The translations under genes and the position numbers were made by a program. From positions 1 to 26,075 of IMG/VR virus record IMGVR_UViG_3300025617_000099: a stretch of 26,075 nucleotides of DNA; one strand, written 5' to 3'. Of this stretch, positions 123 to 14,278 are shown piece by piece (position 1 is the stretch's first letter; each line of letters begins with the position of its first letter). Origin of the DNA: a virus. The notes beneath the pieces were generated by a model. It searched no databases and was not told the DNA's origin. It saw nothing but the letters and a program-made list of their open reading frames with translations.

Positions 123-163
123 GCTTGTACAGTAAAAAATTAACTAGCATATGAGGGCTATAT

Positions 164-411: not shown

Positions 412-452
412 GTACACATACACTAAAACATTAATTGCAAAGAGGGCAAACT

Positions 453-1871: not shown

Positions 1872-1894
1872 TAAACAAAGCGAGGGCAAACGCA

Positions 1895-2871: not shown

Positions 2872-2890
2872 TAGGGCATTGGAGGGCAAC

Positions 2891-3166
2891 ATGGCATTTT
2901 GGACTCACACCGTAGCACCCGTAGGTCGTTTCGTAGAGAAGGAACGCGGTAACTATTTCGAATACTCACTCAACGATGATCCGTTCAACTTCTGCGAAGA
3001 CTTCCCACACAAGATATGGGTAGGCGGACTTGTAAACGATCAGGGCTACCGTTACGGCATTGTCAAGAAGACTGTGGCATATGTCTGCGTAGACGAAGAC
3101 GAGTTTGGCTTGCCTGTGCTTGAGAAGTGGGACATCAAAAATAATGTGGCATATCACCCACATTAG
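2891..3166 (+). CDS. Hypothetical early protein, 91 aa
   Basis: The ATG at 2891 is five bases after GAGGGC (2882-2887). A longer frame back to 2831 would run through the promoter and is rejected. The product (MAFWTHTVAPVGRFVEKERGNYFEY...) is aromatic-rich and probably a compact beta protein. It is a single-gene unit and its stop TAG lies in the TTAGGGG leader of the next promoter. No function is recognised. Confidence 0.8.
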   Translation: MAFWTHTVAPVGRFVEKERGNYFEYSLNDDPFNFCEDFPHKIWVGGLVNDQGYRYGIVKKTVAYVCVDEDEFGLPVLEKWDIKNNVAYHPH

Positions 3167-3210: not shown

Positions 3211-3229
3211 TAGGAAAGAGGGCTACACA

Positions 3230-3445
3230 ATGACATTCCAAGACTATTCCATGAACAATGCATACCAACTAGGTGCATACAAAGCAATCGCACAGATGAT
3301 GGCAGAAGCTGTGCGCAAGTTGGATGCAACAGAAGCAGGCAGCTTTGAAGCTGAGTTTGCTATGATGAGCCTAGTGTTGCTTGCAAAACAGTTTGAAGAA
3401 ACTGTAGAAAAGTTTGAAAAAGAGGTTGACACTGTAGCAGAGTGA
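3230..3445 (+). CDS. Small helical early protein, 71 aa, with EVDTVAE tail
   Basis: The ATG at 3230 follows GAGGGC (3218-3223). The product is Ala/Met/Glu-rich and almost wholly helical (AYKAIAQMMAEAVRKLDATEAG...), compatible with a coiled coil. It ends in EVDTVAE, encoded by the -35 region of the next promoter (GTT GAC ACT). The 58-aa gene ending at 8075 has exactly the same seven-residue tail for the same reason. The function is unknown. Confidence 0.75.
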   Translation: MTFQDYSMNNAYQLGAYKAIAQMMAEAVRKLDATEAGSFEAEFAMMSLVLLAKQFEETVEKFEKEVDTVAE

Positions 3446-3454: not shown

Positions 3455-3496
3455 GTAAGCATAAGTTGAAACAAACATCCTAGAGAGGGCAATACA

Positions 3497-3976
3497 ATGG
3501 GAACTCGTTCAGCAATCGGTTACAAGACACCAGAAGGCAAGATCCGCGCAAAGTATTCACACTATGACGGCTATGTCGCTGGCGCAGGCAAGATGCTCCA
3601 GGAGCACTACCAAGAAGCACGTAAGATTGCACAGATGGTAGAGCTTGGCGATCAAAGCTACATGGACAAGCACATCTTTCCAGTAGGCAAGAATCACAGC
3701 TTTGAAACTCCAGAAGAAGACTGCACAATCTTTTACGGTCGCGATCGCGGCGAGACTAATGTCGACGCACAAGAGTTTGACACTGTGCAGGAGTTTGTGG
3801 AATACTACACGGGCGCAGGTTGCGAATACTTTTACCTGCACACAGCCGCAGGTTGGATTGTGCATGATCGCTACACTGTAGGCAACGATGCAAACGGCTT
3901 TCCAATCTTTGACGACTTGGAGACTTGTGTAACACTTGAAGTGGCTCGCTTGAAAGCACAAGGCTACGATATCTAA
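3497..3976 (+). CDS. Conserved phage protein of the MGTRS family, 159 aa
   Basis: The ATG at 3497 follows GAGGGC (3485-3490). The N-terminus MGTRSAIGYKTPEGKIRAKY followed by SHYDGYVAGAGKML (residues 21-34) matches a widespread phage family that usually begins MGTRS and carries a Y.H.DGY motif. The family has no known activity. Residues 95-125 are Tyr/Phe-rich (FVEYYTGAGCEYFYLH). It is a single-gene unit upstream of the tRNA promoter. Confidence 0.85.
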   Translation: MGTRSAIGYKTPEGKIRAKYSHYDGYVAGAGKMLQEHYQEARKIAQMVELGDQSYMDKHIFPVGKNHSFETPEEDCTIFYGRDRGETNVDAQEFDTVQEFVEYYTGAGCEYFYLHTAAGWIVHDRYTVGNDANGFPIFDDLETCVTLEVARLKAQGYDI

Positions 3977-4285: not shown

Positions 4286-4355
4286 TACAGGGAGTAGAGC
4301 AGCCAGCGAGCCGCCCTCACTCAAAGGAAATTAAATGCTCCTCCCTGTACTTTTT
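4286..4355 (+). ncRNA. Long hairpin with GCCCTC loop closing the tRNA operon
   Basis: TACAGGGAG (4286-4294) pairs with CTCCCTGTA (4341-4349). After a two-base bulge, GAGC (4297-4300) pairs with GCTC (4337-4340). The 36-nt loop contains GCCCTC (4313-4318). The stem is followed by C and TTTTT (4351-4355), so it can act as a terminator, but the loop is far larger than normal. The bulge plus GAGC/GCTC layout recurs in the hairpin at 6979-7032. GCCCTC is the exact complement of the early-gene RBS GAGGGC. Confidence 0.65.
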
Positions 4356-4614: not shown

Positions 4615-4626
4615 GGAGGGCAAGCA

Positions 4627-4824
4627 ATGATCAAAGTTTTCAACTCAGCATACCGTGAAACAATCCTAGATCCGAAGATGCTTCCGCTAGACGAAGTCAA
4701 CATCGTAAGCAACAAGATTGACTACATGGGTCGTCCTTACATCCTGTTCGAGCACAACGACTACCCTGGCGGTGCGCTCCGTGCAGAGTTCCGCAACGAT
4801 TGCTGGGAATGTGATTTAGATTAA
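4627..4824 (+). CDS. Small hypothetical early protein, 65 aa
   Basis: The ATG at 4627 follows GGAGGGC (4615-4621) at ideal distance. The product (MIKVFNSAYRETILDPKMLPL...) contains a C-terminal FRNDCWECDLD with a Cys-Trp-Glu-Cys pair, which might bind a metal or simply be reduced. No family is recognised. Its stop directly precedes the TAGGGG leader of the next promoter. Confidence 0.75.
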   Translation: MIKVFNSAYRETILDPKMLPLDEVNIVSNKIDYMGRPYILFEHNDYPGGALRAEFRNDCWECDLD

Positions 4825-4873: not shown

Positions 4874-4894
4874 TAGGCAATAGGAGGGCATCCA

Positions 4895-5086
4895 ATGGCA
4901 ACAAACTTAAAGACTTCAACAGACGCGGTTGTATTGACTCGCTTCTACGGTGGCGAGGACGGTGTCTGCGTACAAGTCAACTCACGGCGTGTGTTTGAGA
5001 ACGTTCGCTTGACACGCGACGAAGCTCGTGCTTTGGCAAAAGACTTGATGGACTTTGCCGCATGTGCAGAAGAGGAGGACTTCTGA
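4895..5086 (+). CDS. Small hypothetical early protein, 63 aa
   Basis: The ATG at 4895 follows GAGGGC (4884-4889). The first half looks like a beta hairpin (VVLTRFYGGEDGVCVQVNS) and the second half like a helix (LTRDEARALAKDLMDFAACAEEED). No function is known to me. The stop TGA overlaps the ATG of the following gene. Confidence 0.8.
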   Translation: MATNLKTSTDAVVLTRFYGGEDGVCVQVNSRRVFENVRLTRDEARALAKDLMDFAACAEEEDF

Positions 5087-5893: not shown

Positions 5894-5933
5894 TTGACAA
5901 CTGTTAGATTGAATGTATACTGTATATAACAGT
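5894..5933 (+). promoter_or_regulatory. Early promoter with ACTGTATATAACAGT operator (16-bp spacer)
   Basis: TTGACA 5894-5899, 16-bp spacer, TATACT 5916-5921, perfect palindrome at 5919-5933. It is the only one of this class with a 16-bp spacer. It drives the AAA+ ATPase gene and, by read-through, the hairpin RNAs downstream. Confidence 0.85.
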
Positions 5934-5955
5934 TAGGCAATGAGGGCTAAAGCAA

Positions 5956-6957
5956 ATGACTAATATCACAATCAAGAGCGGCACGTACAAGATTCGTGGC
6001 AAGGACGTAGACCTAGCAGGTATGACCTTTCCACTCGTAGAAGAATTTAAAGTAGGCGCACGAGGCGGCTACGTAACAGTAGACGGAACAGCAATTGCAG
6101 GCTTCCCAGATCGCAACATCAAGATTGCTTGCGATGGCCCGGAGGACTACGAAGTTGCCGACGCAAGTGTTAAGGTCGAGCAACGAGAAGAGACGGACGA
6201 AGAGATCATCGAGCGCATCCGTGAACGCTTTGACATGTTGAAGGACATGACCAAAGCAGTTAAGAAAGGTGATGTTCGAGCGATGATCGTTTCGGGTCCT
6301 CCGGGCGTAGGTAAGAGCCATGGTGTAGAAGAAGTACTAGACCGCTACAAGACTATGGAAGCACTGGGCGGTGCCTCTAAGTATACAGTTGTCAAAGGTG
6401 CGATGAGCCCAATCGGCTTGTACTGCAAGCTCTTTAACTATGCAGACAAAGACAACGTTATTGTGTTCGATGACTGTGATGCTATCTTCGAAGAGCCGCT
6501 GGCGCTTAATATTTTGAAGGCTGCGCTTGACTCAAAGAAGACACGCCGCATCCACTGGAACACTGACAGCTTCAAACTGCGCAACGAAGGTGTGCCAGAC
6601 AGCTTTGAGTTCAAAGGCTCAGCTATCTTTATCACTAACTTGGACTTCGGTGACATCAAGTCAAAGAAGATCAAGAGCCACTTGGAAGCACTAGAAAGCC
6701 GCTGTCACTACATGGACTTGACAATTACAACTGAGCGTGAGAAGATGCTCAGAATTGCACAAGTTATCCGTGATGGCATGCTAGATAGTTATAAGCTTGC
6801 CGACGAAGTCAAAGATGAGATCATCGACTTCGTTGACATTAATAAGAAGCGACTGCGTGAATTGTCCTTAAGGACCGTATTAAAAGTCGCCGACTTGGCT
6901 GTAGCATTTCCCAGCAAGTGGGAAGCTATGGCAGAGAACACTGTCATGAAGCGTTAA
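5956..6957 (+). CDS. AAA+ family ATPase, 333 aa
   Basis: The ATG at 5956 follows GAGGGC (5942-5947). Walker A is GPPGVGKS (residues 114-121), Walker B VIVFDDCD (168-175), sensor-1 asparagine is in FITNLD (about 228), and R249 in LEALESRC is a candidate arginine finger. Residues 1-75 form a separate beta-rich N-terminal domain, and an acidic helix (about 76-100) links it to the ATPase core. The fold predicts a ring-forming ATPase that remodels a protein or DNA partner; it is not clearly gp44 clamp loader, and the partner is unknown. It is by far the largest gene of the early module, and three hairpins follow its stop. Confidence 0.85.
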   Translation: MTNITIKSGTYKIRGKDVDLAGMTFPLVEEFKVGARGGYVTVDGTAIAGFPDRNIKIACDGPEDYEVADASVKVEQREETDEEIIERIRERFDMLKDMTKAVKKGDVRAMIVSGPPGVGKSHGVEEVLDRYKTMEALGGASKYTVVKGAMSPIGLYCKLFNYADKDNVIVFDDCDAIFEEPLALNILKAALDSKKTRRIHWNTDSFKLRNEGVPDSFEFKGSAIFITNLDFGDIKSKKIKSHLEALESRCHYMDLTITTEREKMLRIAQVIRDGMLDSYKLADEVKDEIIDFVDINKKRLRELSLRTVLKVADLAVAFPSKWEAMAENTVMKR

Positions 6958-6978
6958 TGCCCTCGACGCAGACAGTGT

Positions 6979-7032
6979 AGTGCTAGCATTGAGCAACCCC
7001 CCTCAGCCCTCAACGCTCTGCTAGTACTTTTT
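6979..7032 (+). ncRNA. Hairpin 1 of the GCCCTC RNA cluster
   Basis: AGTGCTAGCA (6979-6988) pairs with TGCTAGTACT (7019-7028, one G-U). After a TT bulge, GAGC (6991-6994) pairs with GCTC (7015-7018). The 20-nt loop holds CCCCTC and GCCCTC (7006-7011). TTTT follows, so it can terminate transcription. Its layout copies the hairpin after the tRNAs. An alternative TTGAG/CTCAA pairing would partly hide GCCCTC. Another GCCCTC lies at 6959-6964, right after the ATPase stop. Confidence 0.7.
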
Positions 7033-7063
7033 GAAGCAACAGCAAGCCCTCACGCTTTGCTTC
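7033..7063 (+). ncRNA. Hairpin 2 of the GCCCTC RNA cluster
   Basis: GAAGCAA (7033-7039) pairs with TTGCTTC (7057-7063). After a one-base bulge, AGC pairs with GCT. The ten-base apical loop is AAGCCCTCAC. It is not followed by a U-tract, so it is not a terminator; its only evident feature is the exposed GCCCTC. Confidence 0.7.
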
Positions 7064-7068
7064 AGGTT

Positions 7069-7111
7069 AGCCCGGGAAGGATGTGCCCTCGTCCAACCCG
7101 GGCTTTTTTTT
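7069..7111 (+). terminator. Hairpin 3 of the GCCCTC cluster, strong intrinsic terminator
   Basis: AGCCCGGG (7069-7076) pairs with CCCGGGCT (7097-7104) and an inner GGA/TCC extends the stem. The ten-base loop TGTGCCCTCG exposes GCCCTC (7085-7090). The stem runs into eight T's. It ends the ATPase transcript and the hairpin array. Confidence 0.9.
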
Positions 7112-7132
7112 GATCTTTTTTTAAATTAGGGG

Positions 7133-7173
7133 TTGACATTTGGGTACAGTGACCATATACTGTATATAACAGT
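7133..7173 (+). promoter_or_regulatory. Early promoter with ACTGTATATAACAGT operator
   Basis: TTGACA 7133-7138, 17-bp spacer, TATACT 7156-7161, perfect palindrome at 7159-7173, preceded by AAATTAGGGG. Confidence 0.85.
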
Positions 7174-7200
7174 TAGGAAATAGGCATTGAGGGCAAAACT

Positions 7201-7542
7201 ATGCAATTCGTAATCACAACACAATTCCTTGAGAACTATGGTGCACACTGCGAGAGCGGCAAGTTCGCTGATGGTAATGCGTACTGGAAGATGAAAGGTG
7301 GCTCAGACTACCTTGTGCAGGACTTGGATCGCATCCAAGATGCTGTTGCGTTTGTAGCGGCGATCGCTATGCAGAACGGCATTGGTGCCAAGGAGTTCCC
7401 AGTAGAGTGGCAAACAGAAGCTGAGTGGATCAGCAAACTGCCTGAGGACGAGGACTATCGTGACTTCCTCAAGGAACAAGTGTTAGTGGTAAGCCCCAAG
7501 CGTGGCTCGAAAACAACACGCGGCTATCCACAGGATTTTTAA
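7201..7542 (+). CDS. Conserved phage protein, 113 aa
   Basis: The ATG at 7201 follows GAGGGC (7189-7194). The pattern MQFVITTQFLENYGAH...GNAYWKMKGG...DLDRIQDAVAFV is, from memory, shared with small proteins of many tailed phages and is likely a conserved uncharacterised family. The product is soluble; the C-terminal quarter is basic (SPKRGSKTTRGYPQDF). It is a single-gene unit under an operator-bearing promoter. Confidence 0.85.
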   Translation: MQFVITTQFLENYGAHCESGKFADGNAYWKMKGGSDYLVQDLDRIQDAVAFVAAIAMQNGIGAKEFPVEWQTEAEWISKLPEDEDYRDFLKEQVLVVSPKRGSKTTRGYPQDF

Positions 7543-7592: not shown

Positions 7593-7613
7593 TAAGCAAA
7601 AGAGGGCAAACAA

Positions 7614-7886
7614 ATGCAAACACTGAAGCAATTCATCCAAGACAACAACCGCTGGATCGCACTGTTCGGCAAAGCGGACATGACTTTCCCACTAACACAA
7701 GCAGACGTAGATGACTTAGCACGTACACTGGACGGCAAGCTGTCACCTGAGAACCTGCACTGCGATGGAGAGATCAGTCGTGCAGAAGCCAATCGCAAGT
7801 ATCGCTTTCTCGCTACAGTATATCGCGAGCTGTGTGAGTACTGCGACATGAAAGGCTTGAAAGAACCAACTGTATACGAACTCTAA
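7614..7886 (+). CDS. Conserved phage protein, 90 aa
   Basis: The ATG at 7614 follows GAGGGC (7602-7607). The core RWIALFGKADMTFPLTQADV...DLARTLDGKLSPENLHCDGEISRAEANRKYRFL is, from memory, a pattern found in several marine phages, with no known biochemical function. It has two cysteines near the C-terminus (YCDM region). It is followed 12 bases later by the 58-aa gene, so the two share a promoter. Confidence 0.8.
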   Translation: MQTLKQFIQDNNRWIALFGKADMTFPLTQADVDDLARTLDGKLSPENLHCDGEISRAEANRKYRFLATVYRELCEYCDMKGLKEPTVYEL

Positions 7887-8094: not shown

Positions 8095-8116
8095 TAACAA
8101 AGCAAGAGGGCAAACT

Positions 8117-8494
8117 ATGCAAGCAACAACACTTACTCCTAATCAATTAGCAGAGCAATACTCAGCAGAAGATGTACAGCGCATCGTAGATGAAGCGTGT
8201 GAGGCAGCATACAAGGCAGCTGACACTTACTTCCACGATGTACTGGGCGGGCAGGATATGTATGCCTGTGGCTTTGCTTGGGTTAACATCTACGGCATCA
8301 AGGGTAACACTCGTATAGGCAAACGCTTTGCGCTTGCAGGTGTACGCAAAGACTACACTGGTGCGCTACAGATATGGAACCCAAGCAAGTACGGTTGCCA
8401 GAACGTAGACACACTAGAAGCAGGTGCTAGAGCTGCCGCTAAGGTACTAGAGAGCTACGGCTTTAGAGCATACGCAGGTTCAAGACTAGACTAA
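8117..8494 (+). CDS. Conserved phage protein, 125 aa
   Basis: The ATG at 8117 follows GAGGGC (8106-8111). Residues 20-60 are helical (AEDVQRIVDEACEAAYKAADTYF), followed by CGFAWVNIYG and a C-terminal EAGARAAAKVLESYGFRAYAGSRLD. From memory, similar sequences are widespread in tailed phages as proteins of unknown function. It is the last gene of the early module, and a terminator lies 55 bases downstream. Confidence 0.8.
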   Translation: MQATTLTPNQLAEQYSAEDVQRIVDEACEAAYKAADTYFHDVLGGQDMYACGFAWVNIYGIKGNTRIGKRFALAGVRKDYTGALQIWNPSKYGCQNVDTLEAGARAAAKVLESYGFRAYAGSRLD

Positions 8495-13215: not shown

Positions 13216-13320
13216 CTACTGCCTATGTAAAAGACTTAATAGTTGTTCTTCGGTAACACTAATATCTAAATTATCTAACCAACTACTAATATCGTCATAT
13301 GTTTTATATCTATCTATCAT
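13216..13320 (-). CDS. Small hypothetical protein, 34 aa
   Basis: The ATG at 13320 overlaps the end of the carbamoyltransferase gene by 11 bases; the TAG at 13216-13218 lies just before the oxygenase ATG. The product MIDRYKTYDDISSWLDNLDI... is acidic and helical. It neatly fills the only gap in an otherwise gapless operon, which supports it; no family is known. Confidence 0.55.
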   Translation of the reverse strand: MIDRYKTYDDISSWLDNLDISVTEEQLLSLLHRQ

Positions 13321-14278
13321 GCCACTTCTTATCCACTTCTGTATATTGTTTAGTATGTGCTAGTACTGCGCCAATACAACTGCCAGGATCGCCTGGATTT
13401 TTAGGTACGTGTACATTATCCCATCTGTTACGTAATTTATCAACAGCATCACGATTAAGTGCGCCGCCGCCTGCTAGTGCTAGGTTAGCACTGCCTGTTT
13501 TAGATAATGTCCATTCGCTTACGTTCATTACACAGTACTCAAACACAGACTGTGTTGCGGCAGCAATATCGTACATGTCTTGCTCTGTAGTTAGCTCAGG
13601 CTTCCACCAGCGACAACCTCTATGTAAGTTTTCTTTCATTGAGATTTTAGGATTAAAACCCATGCCTTCAGTACTGACCAATTCATTTAGTATAGGCATG
13701 AACAACTTGTGTGGGTCGCCTTTCTTAGCCCATTGACTGATTAAGTATTCATCACGCTGTGGAACTAGGCCTACACGCTGTGTCATAGCACTATAGAAAA
13801 GTCCTAGACTGTGTGGATAACCTTGCGAATGTATTTTCTTAAGTTTGCCGTTCTTACCGTGCCATATAGTTAGTGTTTCAAACTCGCCGATGCTGTCTAA
13901 ACAAATTACAGCACAGTCATCGTGCGGTTGTGTGTAGTATGCATAAGCAGCGTGGCTAAGGTGATGCTGGGTATATGTAATGCTTCTATTTACAATACCT
14001 CTTTCTTTAAAATATTGATCGATATTATTTTCTTTTAGTAACCATCCTTGTCCTGCCCACCACTGTCGAATAGTTTTAAGTACTGGACGTTCGTACCAAA
14101 AGATATGACTAGGATATCCCCAACCCTCGATAGCATAATCTATAATGCCTTTGTTGAGATCAGGGTCGTTAGGTATCTCTGAAAAATCTCGTGCTAGCCC
14201 AGCCCACACTAAATCACCGTAGTTAAACACTGCTAGGCTAGCATCATGACTGTTGCCTACGGCTCCCCAAGTAATCAT
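13310..14278 (-). CDS. NodU-like carbamoyltransferase, N-terminal domain form, 322 aa
   Basis: NodU/TobZ-type enzymes move a carbamoyl group from carbamoyl phosphate to sugar hydroxyls. Visible motifs: HDASLAV (11-17), HHLSHAAYAYY (105-115), CLDSIGEFETL (126-136), LALAGGGALN, and NPGDPGSCIGAVL near the C-terminus. The actin-like/Kae1-like N-terminal domain appears complete, but full NodU proteins are about 550-600 aa, and the C-terminal YrdC-like part is absent. The shortened form may still be active with a host partner, or may only do the second half-reaction. It overlaps the 37-aa gene by ATGA. Confidence 0.85.
   Translation of the reverse strand: MITWGAVGNSHDASLAVFNYGDLVWAGLARDFSEIPNDPDLNKGIIDYAIEGWGYPSHIFWYERPVLKTIRQWWAGQGWLLKENNIDQYFKERGIVNRSITYTQHHLSHAAYAYYTQPHDDCAVICLDSIGEFETLTIWHGKNGKLKKIHSQGYPHSLGLFYSAMTQRVGLVPQRDEYLISQWAKKGDPHKLFMPILNELVSTEGMGFNPKISMKENLHRGCRWWKPELTTEQDMYDIAAATQSVFEYCVMNVSEWTLSKTGSANLALAGGGALNRDAVDKLRNRWDNVHVPKNPGDPGSCIGAVLAHTKQYTEVDKKWHDR

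Follow-up and report, generated by a model that had tools for sequence, protein, structure and literature searches.

Hairpin loops behind a phage AAA+ ATPase gene complement early ribosome binding sites: a putative anti-RBS RNA array in T4-related phages

The window analysed here, i.e., the whole 26-kb IMG/VR virus record IMGVR_UViG_3300025617_000099, belongs to a marine, T4-related virus that infects bacteria. Its + strand carries early genes behind repeated TTGACA ... TATACTGTATATAA promoters (nine sites on this strand, none on the other strand, and none in a reversed control), and its − strand carries replication genes, including a DnaB-like helicase, a primase, and a further helicase. One + strand gene encodes an AAA+ ATPase homologous to the T4-like nrdC.10, under which name it is annotated in phage IME08. 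The 3′ untranslated region (UTR) of this gene is the subject of the present analysis, as it holds a row of four hairpins with loops carrying GCCCTC (GCCCUC in the RNA), the exact complement of the ribosome binding site (RBS) signature GAGGGC that is common to the early genes (Table 1).

The first-pass annotation had placed four GCCCTC copies directly after the AAA+ stop codon, and all four are exact and lie on the + strand. It had assigned three of them to apical loops; loop placement held, and folding puts all four copies in loops. Hairpin 1 contains both TAA and GCCCTC in one loop, a position conserved among relatives, and the large loop of hairpin 2 carries an additional CCCCCCTC beside GCCCTC. 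Hairpin 4 was classified as an intrinsic terminator because a U tract follows it directly. The folding energy of the array segment was 4.2 standard deviations below that of dinucleotide shuffles, and GCCCTC and GAGGGC together occurred 20 times in the window versus 4.8 times expected, with a maximum of 11 in 100 shuffles. Two more + strand copies of GCCCTC deserve mention: one at 2842, inside a promoter spacer, and an intergenic one at 4313–4318, which was missing from the copies listed in the first pass and is described below. A search against Rfam returned no match at positions 6900–7150 for E-values up to 1, and the matches within the window were tRNAs only.

Table 1. Features of the array, its putative targets, and the second GCCCUC hairpin in the window.
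Feature	Position	Strand	Remark
RBS GAGGGC, gene 164-331	153..158	+	target
RBS GAGGGC, gene 453-746	442..447	+	target
RBS GAGGGC, gene 1895-2104	1882..1887	+	target
RBS GAGGGC, gene 2891-3166	2882..2887	+	target
RBS GAGGGC, gene 3230-3445	3218..3223	+	target
RBS GAGGGC, gene 3497-3976	3485..3490	+	target
Hairpin and U tract ending the tRNA operon (Arg-Leu-Met)	4286..4355	+	GCCCUC 4313-4318 in loop
RBS GAGGGC, gene 4627-4824	4616..4621	+	target; not promoter-proximal
RBS GAGGGC, gene 4895-5086	4884..4889	+	target
Early-type promoter, AAA+ transcription unit (TTGACA ... TATACTGTATATAA)	5894..5929	+	pattern search
RBS GAGGGC of the AAA+ gene itself	5942..5947	+	matches loops 2 and 3 over 8 nt (TGAGGGCT)
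AAA+ ATPase gene	5956..6957	+	PHROG 1250, E 1.7e-83; its transcript carries the array
Hairpin 1, spans the AAA+ stop codon	6938..6978	+	loop holds UAAUGCCCUCG
Loop motif GCCCUC, copy 1	6959..6964	+	putative anti-RBS; exact match
Hairpin 2, 20-nt loop	6979..7028	+	loop holds CCCCCCUC and GCCCUC
Loop motif GCCCUC, copy 2	7006..7011	+	putative anti-RBS; exact match
Hairpin 3, 10-nt loop	7031..7065	+	folding
Loop motif GCCCUC, copy 3	7046..7051	+	putative anti-RBS; exact match
Hairpin 4, stem of the intrinsic terminator, enclosing an inner hairpin	7069..7104	+	6-nt loop GCCCUC, U tract to 7111
Loop motif GCCCUC, copy 4	7085..7090	+	putative anti-RBS; exact match
RBS GAGGGC, gene 7201-7542	7189..7194	+	target; first gene past the array
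RBS GAGGGC, gene 7614-7886	7602..7607	+	target; leader AAAGAGGGCAAAC
RBS GAGGGC, gene 8117-8494	8106..8111	+	target

On the target side, GAGGGC is the RBS of 11 of the 15 promoter-proximal genes in the window and of one further gene, and two other promoter-proximal genes have the near-matches AAGGGC and GAGGGA. The first pass had recognised this signature but counted 12 promoter-proximal genes, the twelfth being the gene at 4627, which does not lie next to a promoter; the 8-nt loop matches it gave at 152–159 and 5941–5948 are correct. The six bases of the signature are mostly found 3–8 nt ahead of the ATG, within A-rich flanks that are not conserved.

To follow both elements in related phages, viral contigs were scanned with the AAA+ protein, which yielded 78 loci; loci with an AAA+ identity of at least 68%, related to one another and hence not independent, are referred to as the near group. 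Almost all AAA+ 3′ UTRs of the near group hold one to five GCCCTC copies, the stems around them varying between phages (e.g., GGATGTgccctcGTCC, GCGTAgccctcACGC, GGACCgccctcATCC, and GGGTgccctcCCC), and U tracts follow the last hairpin in many relatives. Across 48 non-redundant UTRs (minimum-energy fold), 125 of 138 GCCCTC copies (90.6%) fell into apical loops, compared to 7.6% when everything except the GCCCTC copies was shuffled, and the mean folding z-score was −5.6. The tandem pattern GCCCTC-N20-50-GCCCTC gave 46 matches in 30 records and none in a reversed control. Of these matches, 42 lie at the AAA+ array, one is a tRNA-tail element (G012:5230), and three lie elsewhere, at least two of the latter looking like the complement of two RBSs. 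IMG/VR scans with two common hairpin sequences matched many unrelated GC-rich phages; the tandem arrays with hairpins recovered by these scans were all from AAA+ relatives, one of them the diverged L324. In L028, no GCCCTC copy stands right behind the AAA+ stop codon: an insertion of several hundred bases (approximately 2193–2850) separates the gene from the displaced array, which is nonetheless retained, with copies at 2910 and 3059.

GAGGGC was likewise frequent at near-group promoter-linked starts (302/633, based on heuristic start-site calls), with AGGGC or GAGGG at 137 more, and was found at 0/116 such starts in an array-less group whose AAA+ identity is about 60%. In four contigs of 116–357 kb, most GAGGGC RBSs were confined to a single 20-kb piece that also holds the array (16/19, 6/9, 9/9, and 10/10), genes outside this piece using other leaders. 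Nearly all intergenic GCCCTC copies in these contigs that were not opposite a GAGGGC RBS lay in the array or the tRNA tail. We also considered whether GAGGGC is unusually unpaired within the leaders, which was ruled out (0.63 versus 0.70 for all positions).

The decisive comparison is with more distantly related AAA+ loci, whose RBS signatures differ. L384, L386, L387, and L380 use the RBS GAGAGG and carry hairpin loops with CCTCTC (CCUCUC). L408, L411, L424, L428, and L431 use AGGAGCGA and AGCGAGG and carry loops with TCGCTCC(T) and CCCTCGCT, giving the RBS/loop pair AGGAGCGA/UCGCUCCU. L388, a single genome only, combines the RBS AAAGGAAC with the loop GTTCCTTT, giving the pair AAAGGAAC/GUUCCUUU. 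The fraction of leaders that are exactly complementary over 7 nt to a loop of the same genome was 0.43, 0.58, 0.51, and 0.56 in the four array lineages, compared to at most 0.10 for loops of other lineages; in array-less groups, the match to own loops was at most 0.01. A motif-blind comparison of 6-mers gave the same picture: the top loop 6-mer GCCCTC (45/48 UTRs) and the top leader 6-mer GAGGGC (241/474 leaders) complement each other exactly, a second lineage likewise yielded exact complements (CCTCTC/GAGAGG), and the top 6-mers of a third overlapped. Co-variation of loop and RBS in related phages, which the first-pass annotation had named as a check, is therefore found at the level of lineages. 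This joint change lends strong support to the first-pass proposal of loops made to pair with the early RBS of the phage itself. In L408, L411, L424, L428, and L431, there seem to be two RBS sub-signatures and two kinds of loops per array, one fitting each.

On a tree of the AAA+ proteins, a few deep branches of which have low support, array-less lineages fall between those with an array (GAGGGC; AGGAGCG; and GAGAGG together with its sister AAAGGAAC). The scattering could reflect more than one origin or losses that happened repeatedly; either way, loop and RBS ended up matched in sequence in four versions. L397 and L399–L404 have a conserved hairpin 3′ of the AAA+ gene (GATGGGGTGATTGCCTAGTAAACAACTCCACCCATC) with a loop holding AACAACTCC, the complement of GGAGTTGTT. 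L396, which is related to them, uses the RBS AGGAGTT, and this could be another loop/RBS pair.

A second element with the same loop terminates the tRNA operon of the window (Table 1). Its fold varies with the stretch that is folded, with GCCCUC placed in a loop in one fold and poorly defined in another. Of 21 tRNA-bearing near-group phages that were checked, 10 expose GCCCTC in the terminal hairpin of the tRNA operon, namely the phage of the window and nine relatives (L013, L017, L018, L024, L031, L010, L014, L035, and L058), with two such hairpins in L031. The stems are mostly unrelated between phages, and the element is absent where the tRNA operon leads directly into the next promoter or gene. 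In several tRNA-tail hairpins, the 3′ arm contains GCTCCTCCC, which is itself similar to an anti-Shine–Dalgarno (anti-SD) sequence but lies within the stem. The occurrence of GCCCTC hairpins at the end of tRNA operons suggests a use for these loops on abundant transcripts in general, beyond the AAA+ mRNA.

Taken together, loop placement, the lineage-matched loops and RBSs, the confinement to the early gene cluster, and the copy at the tRNA tail indicate that pairing between loop and RBS was almost certainly selected. From these sequence comparisons, we consider it probable that the AAA+ 3′ UTR encodes an anti-RBS RNA which pairs with early leaders and lowers early translation as the RNA accumulates. 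The 3′ UTR would form a row of one to five independent hairpins, the last one usually being the transcription terminator, with apical loops that are the exact complement of the lineage-specific RBS signature common to the early genes (here GAGGGC/GCCCUC). This RNA, presumed to be discrete or stable, would accumulate either as the 3′ portion of the AAA+ mRNA or after processing into a structured fragment. Its loops would pair with the A-rich early mRNA leaders and compete with the 30S subunit, so that translation of the early set, including the AAA+ gene, would fall while the array builds up. With their different SD sequences, late phage genes and most host mRNAs would escape this effect. We infer repression, as opposed to protection or sponging, and likewise its timing. 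The first-pass interpretation of an RNA that titrates or shuts off early translation is partly supported overall, titration or shut-off being the predicted part.

Nearest-neighbour energies are in line with such a preference, given a 16S anti-SD sequence taken from general knowledge: pairing of the best loop with the early leaders of the window had a mean of −14.3 kcal/mol, compared to −7.4 for the 16S anti-SD, whereas the order was reversed for a canonical SD (−6.1 to −7.5 for the loops versus −13.0 for the 16S anti-SD).

Several results weigh against this interpretation. Cofolding of hairpin 4 with a leader predicted no complex, in an energy model that misses pairing between a linear leader and a tight 6-nt loop. 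About 30% of the near-group promoter-linked starts have no signature match. In the GAGGGC lineage, loop motifs are kept more strictly than RBSs: GCCCTC makes up 133 of 150 loop motifs, while RBS counts were 260 for GAGGGC, 51 for AAGGGC, and 46 for GAGGGA/T, so there is no fine-scale covariation. Of the counter-evidence named in the first pass, two kinds are partly present. Loops follow the RBS between lineages, but within this lineage GCCCTC is kept despite GAGGGA/T or AAGGGC RBSs; L049 and L050, for instance, have mostly GAGGGA RBSs and yet GCCCTC loops. Furthermore, some relatives have a common RBS signature but apparently no loops, the second kind of counter-evidence: in some freshwater relatives (AGGAGCG) and in another group (AGGAGCA), no array was found at the AAA+ site and no tandem array was detected elsewhere. 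The search elsewhere gave two pattern matches that did not resemble hairpin arrays, and isolated hairpins may still occur in these groups. A shared signature therefore needs no array.

As a candidate for finer tracking, the combination of AAGGGC RBSs with GCCCTT loops in L027, L032, and L041 was considered and set aside, as the cases were too few and inconsistent. Among relatives of L424 (L486–L554), many early genes share the RBS AGGAGC(G), and a small gene begins at the end of the AAA+ gene, in place of an array.

We weighed four other explanations for the array. The loops could act in cis only, contacting the RBS at the 5′ end of the same AAA+ mRNA, with other early genes sharing this RBS merely through duplicated promoter-leader cassettes. 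The array is indeed always on or beside the AAA+ gene, whose own RBS reads GAGGGC in 22 of 42 cases and AGGGC or GAGGG in 14 more. However, GAGGGC is hardly commoner there than at other early genes (302/633), the flanks of the six-base signature are not conserved as would be expected for recent cassette copies, and a second GCCCUC hairpin lies at the end of the tRNA operon. Exclusive cis action is further weakened because five phages (L026, L028, L038, L053, and L058) keep the loops although their AAA+ RBS lacks the signature, and we regard it as improbable. We assign an equally low probability to the idea that the array primarily blocks early genes of related phages in the same cell, with lineages escaping by switching their RBS together with their own array, much like plasmid incompatibility groups based on antisense loops. 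Signatures that differ sharply by lineage with loops that follow, and loops that stay fixed while stems vary freely, would fit such interference, but the producer is equally a target, so exclusion must depend on timing. Interference of this kind is compatible with an anti-RBS RNA acting on the phage's own early genes.

Alternatively, the loops might bind or titrate an RNA-binding protein, either as a CsrB-like sponge or by binding the AAA+ protein itself, with RBS complementarity being secondary. Protein sponges also consist of hairpins that vary in number and stem but keep a constant loop. This layout fits the array, as does its close linkage to the AAA+ gene, and CcsR RNAs act together with the protein CcaF1 (PMC10253847). 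A sponge would, however, copy the target motif, and the loops are its complement; complementary change of loop and RBS in several lineages is what base pairing predicts, making a sponge very unlikely. Ordinary 3′-end hairpins, i.e., mRNA stabilisers and a terminator with loops that match by chance or composition, would explain a last hairpin that is a terminator and a first one at the stop codon, but are hardly credible given 90.6% loop placement versus 7.6% in shuffles, zero matches in the reversed-pattern control, exactly complementary top 6-mers, and lineage-specific matching, and a chance origin of the loop/RBS match is excluded.

Among known systems, the closest likeness is to the cuckoo RNAs of alphaproteobacteria (SmelA075/SmelA099, CIN1 locus), in which three or four hairpins in tandem keep the anti-SD loop CCUCCUCCC while their stems vary (PMC3927594), and to CcsR1–4, which are co-transcribed 3′ of ccaF1 and end in a Rho-independent terminator (PMC10253847). 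Processing by RNase E into discrete RNAs is another hallmark of the cuckoo/CcsR family. The phage array shares the tandem arrangement, constant loops, variable stems, and 3′ terminator, so that being tandem does not set it apart from cuckoo RNAs, as had been proposed in the first pass (PMC3927594, PMC10253847). It differs in its loops, which carry GCCCUC, CCUCUC, UCGCUCC(U), or GUUCCUUU against a private RBS instead of CCUCCUCCC against the general SD, and in its linked gene, a T4-type AAA+ gene (PHROG 1250) instead of DUF1127. Moreover, cuckoo/CcsR RNAs are bacterial stress regulators, whereas the array is encoded by a phage and matches the early genes of that phage. LhrC of Listeria carries redundant C-rich motifs on one RNA, one of them in the terminator loop, and blocks SDs (PMC4132741). 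Like RNAIII, RsaE, SprD, and FsrA, it directs a UCCC motif against the general SD of defined targets, whereas the array would direct GCCCUC, or the motif of the lineage, against a whole early regulon; none of the four array loops in the window contains UCCC. Complementarity to the RBS links the array to these SD-blocking small RNAs (sRNAs), blocking itself being a prediction. In its predicted mode of action, the array resembles anti-SD RNAs of the cuckoo/CcsR, RNAIII, and LhrC types, yet it is a member of none of these families, because their defining motif and gene context do not apply to it.

In phage T4, the endoribonuclease RegB cuts the GGAG SD of early mRNAs, including its own, and eases the early-to-late transition (PMC3014915). 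The array would be an RNA counterpart to this nuclease, with the common logic that early mRNAs are selectively inactivated through their SD. A search for RegB (PF10715) in 12 IMG/VR contigs, nine of them array-bearing and the window fragment not among them, gave no match, with the T4 control found at 1e-69; as the contigs may be incomplete, this is weak evidence of absence. Lambda OOP, PreS, VpdS, sas, and 24B_1 are phage-encoded RNAs that work through base pairing, as covered in a review of phage sRNAs (PMC12197685), and have single or few targets, unlike the regulon-wide array. A term search of that review found no anti-RBS array, and none was reported for a phage in the openly licensed papers searched. 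What is new here is a private, co-evolving RBS signature that is followed by the loops.

The phages themselves are T4-like and often jumbo, as contigs of relatives reach 357 kb and a T4-type portal protein was found in eight of 12 contigs tested. PA5oct and Cassandra (Arenbergviridae) are the nearest cultured relatives by DnaB helicase, with an AAA+ protein that is 50% identical. An array was not found in them, as only about 44 bp separate the AAA+ gene from its downstream neighbour, and no cultured model phage was therefore found. Host assignment through contigs of metagenome-assembled genomes (MAGs) was attempted and rejected, since the seven matches fell into bins of unrelated phyla and are most likely stray phage contigs. 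Contigs of this phage group (L377–L383) were present in MAG bins that carry the labels Porticoccaceae, Neomarinimicrobiota, Flavobacteriaceae, Euryarchaeota, and Pelagibacter; these bins appear to be contaminated by phage contigs, one of them 335 kb in size. Among the replication genes of the window, an auxiliary gene at 13310–14278 (− strand) matches the Nol-like carbamoyltransferase family (PHROG 1601).

A broader and distinctly speculative extension, which we think is rather unlikely to hold in full, is a private translation code. Early genes would be tagged by a lineage-specific, non-canonical RBS with a matching anti-RBS array, forming incompatibility-like groups that time their own early programme and silence competitors with the same signature during co-infection. 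If an anti-RBS array does act on the early genes, a whole gene set would be regulated by a non-coding RNA that reads a private RBS and not the universal SD, through a modular design of hairpins that have only six loop bases in common. It would be a clean example of the joint evolution of an RNA regulator and its regulon, as well as a way of shutting off early translation by RNA, for which T4 employs a nuclease, and its several versions would provide ready-made orthogonal RBS/anti-RBS pairs.
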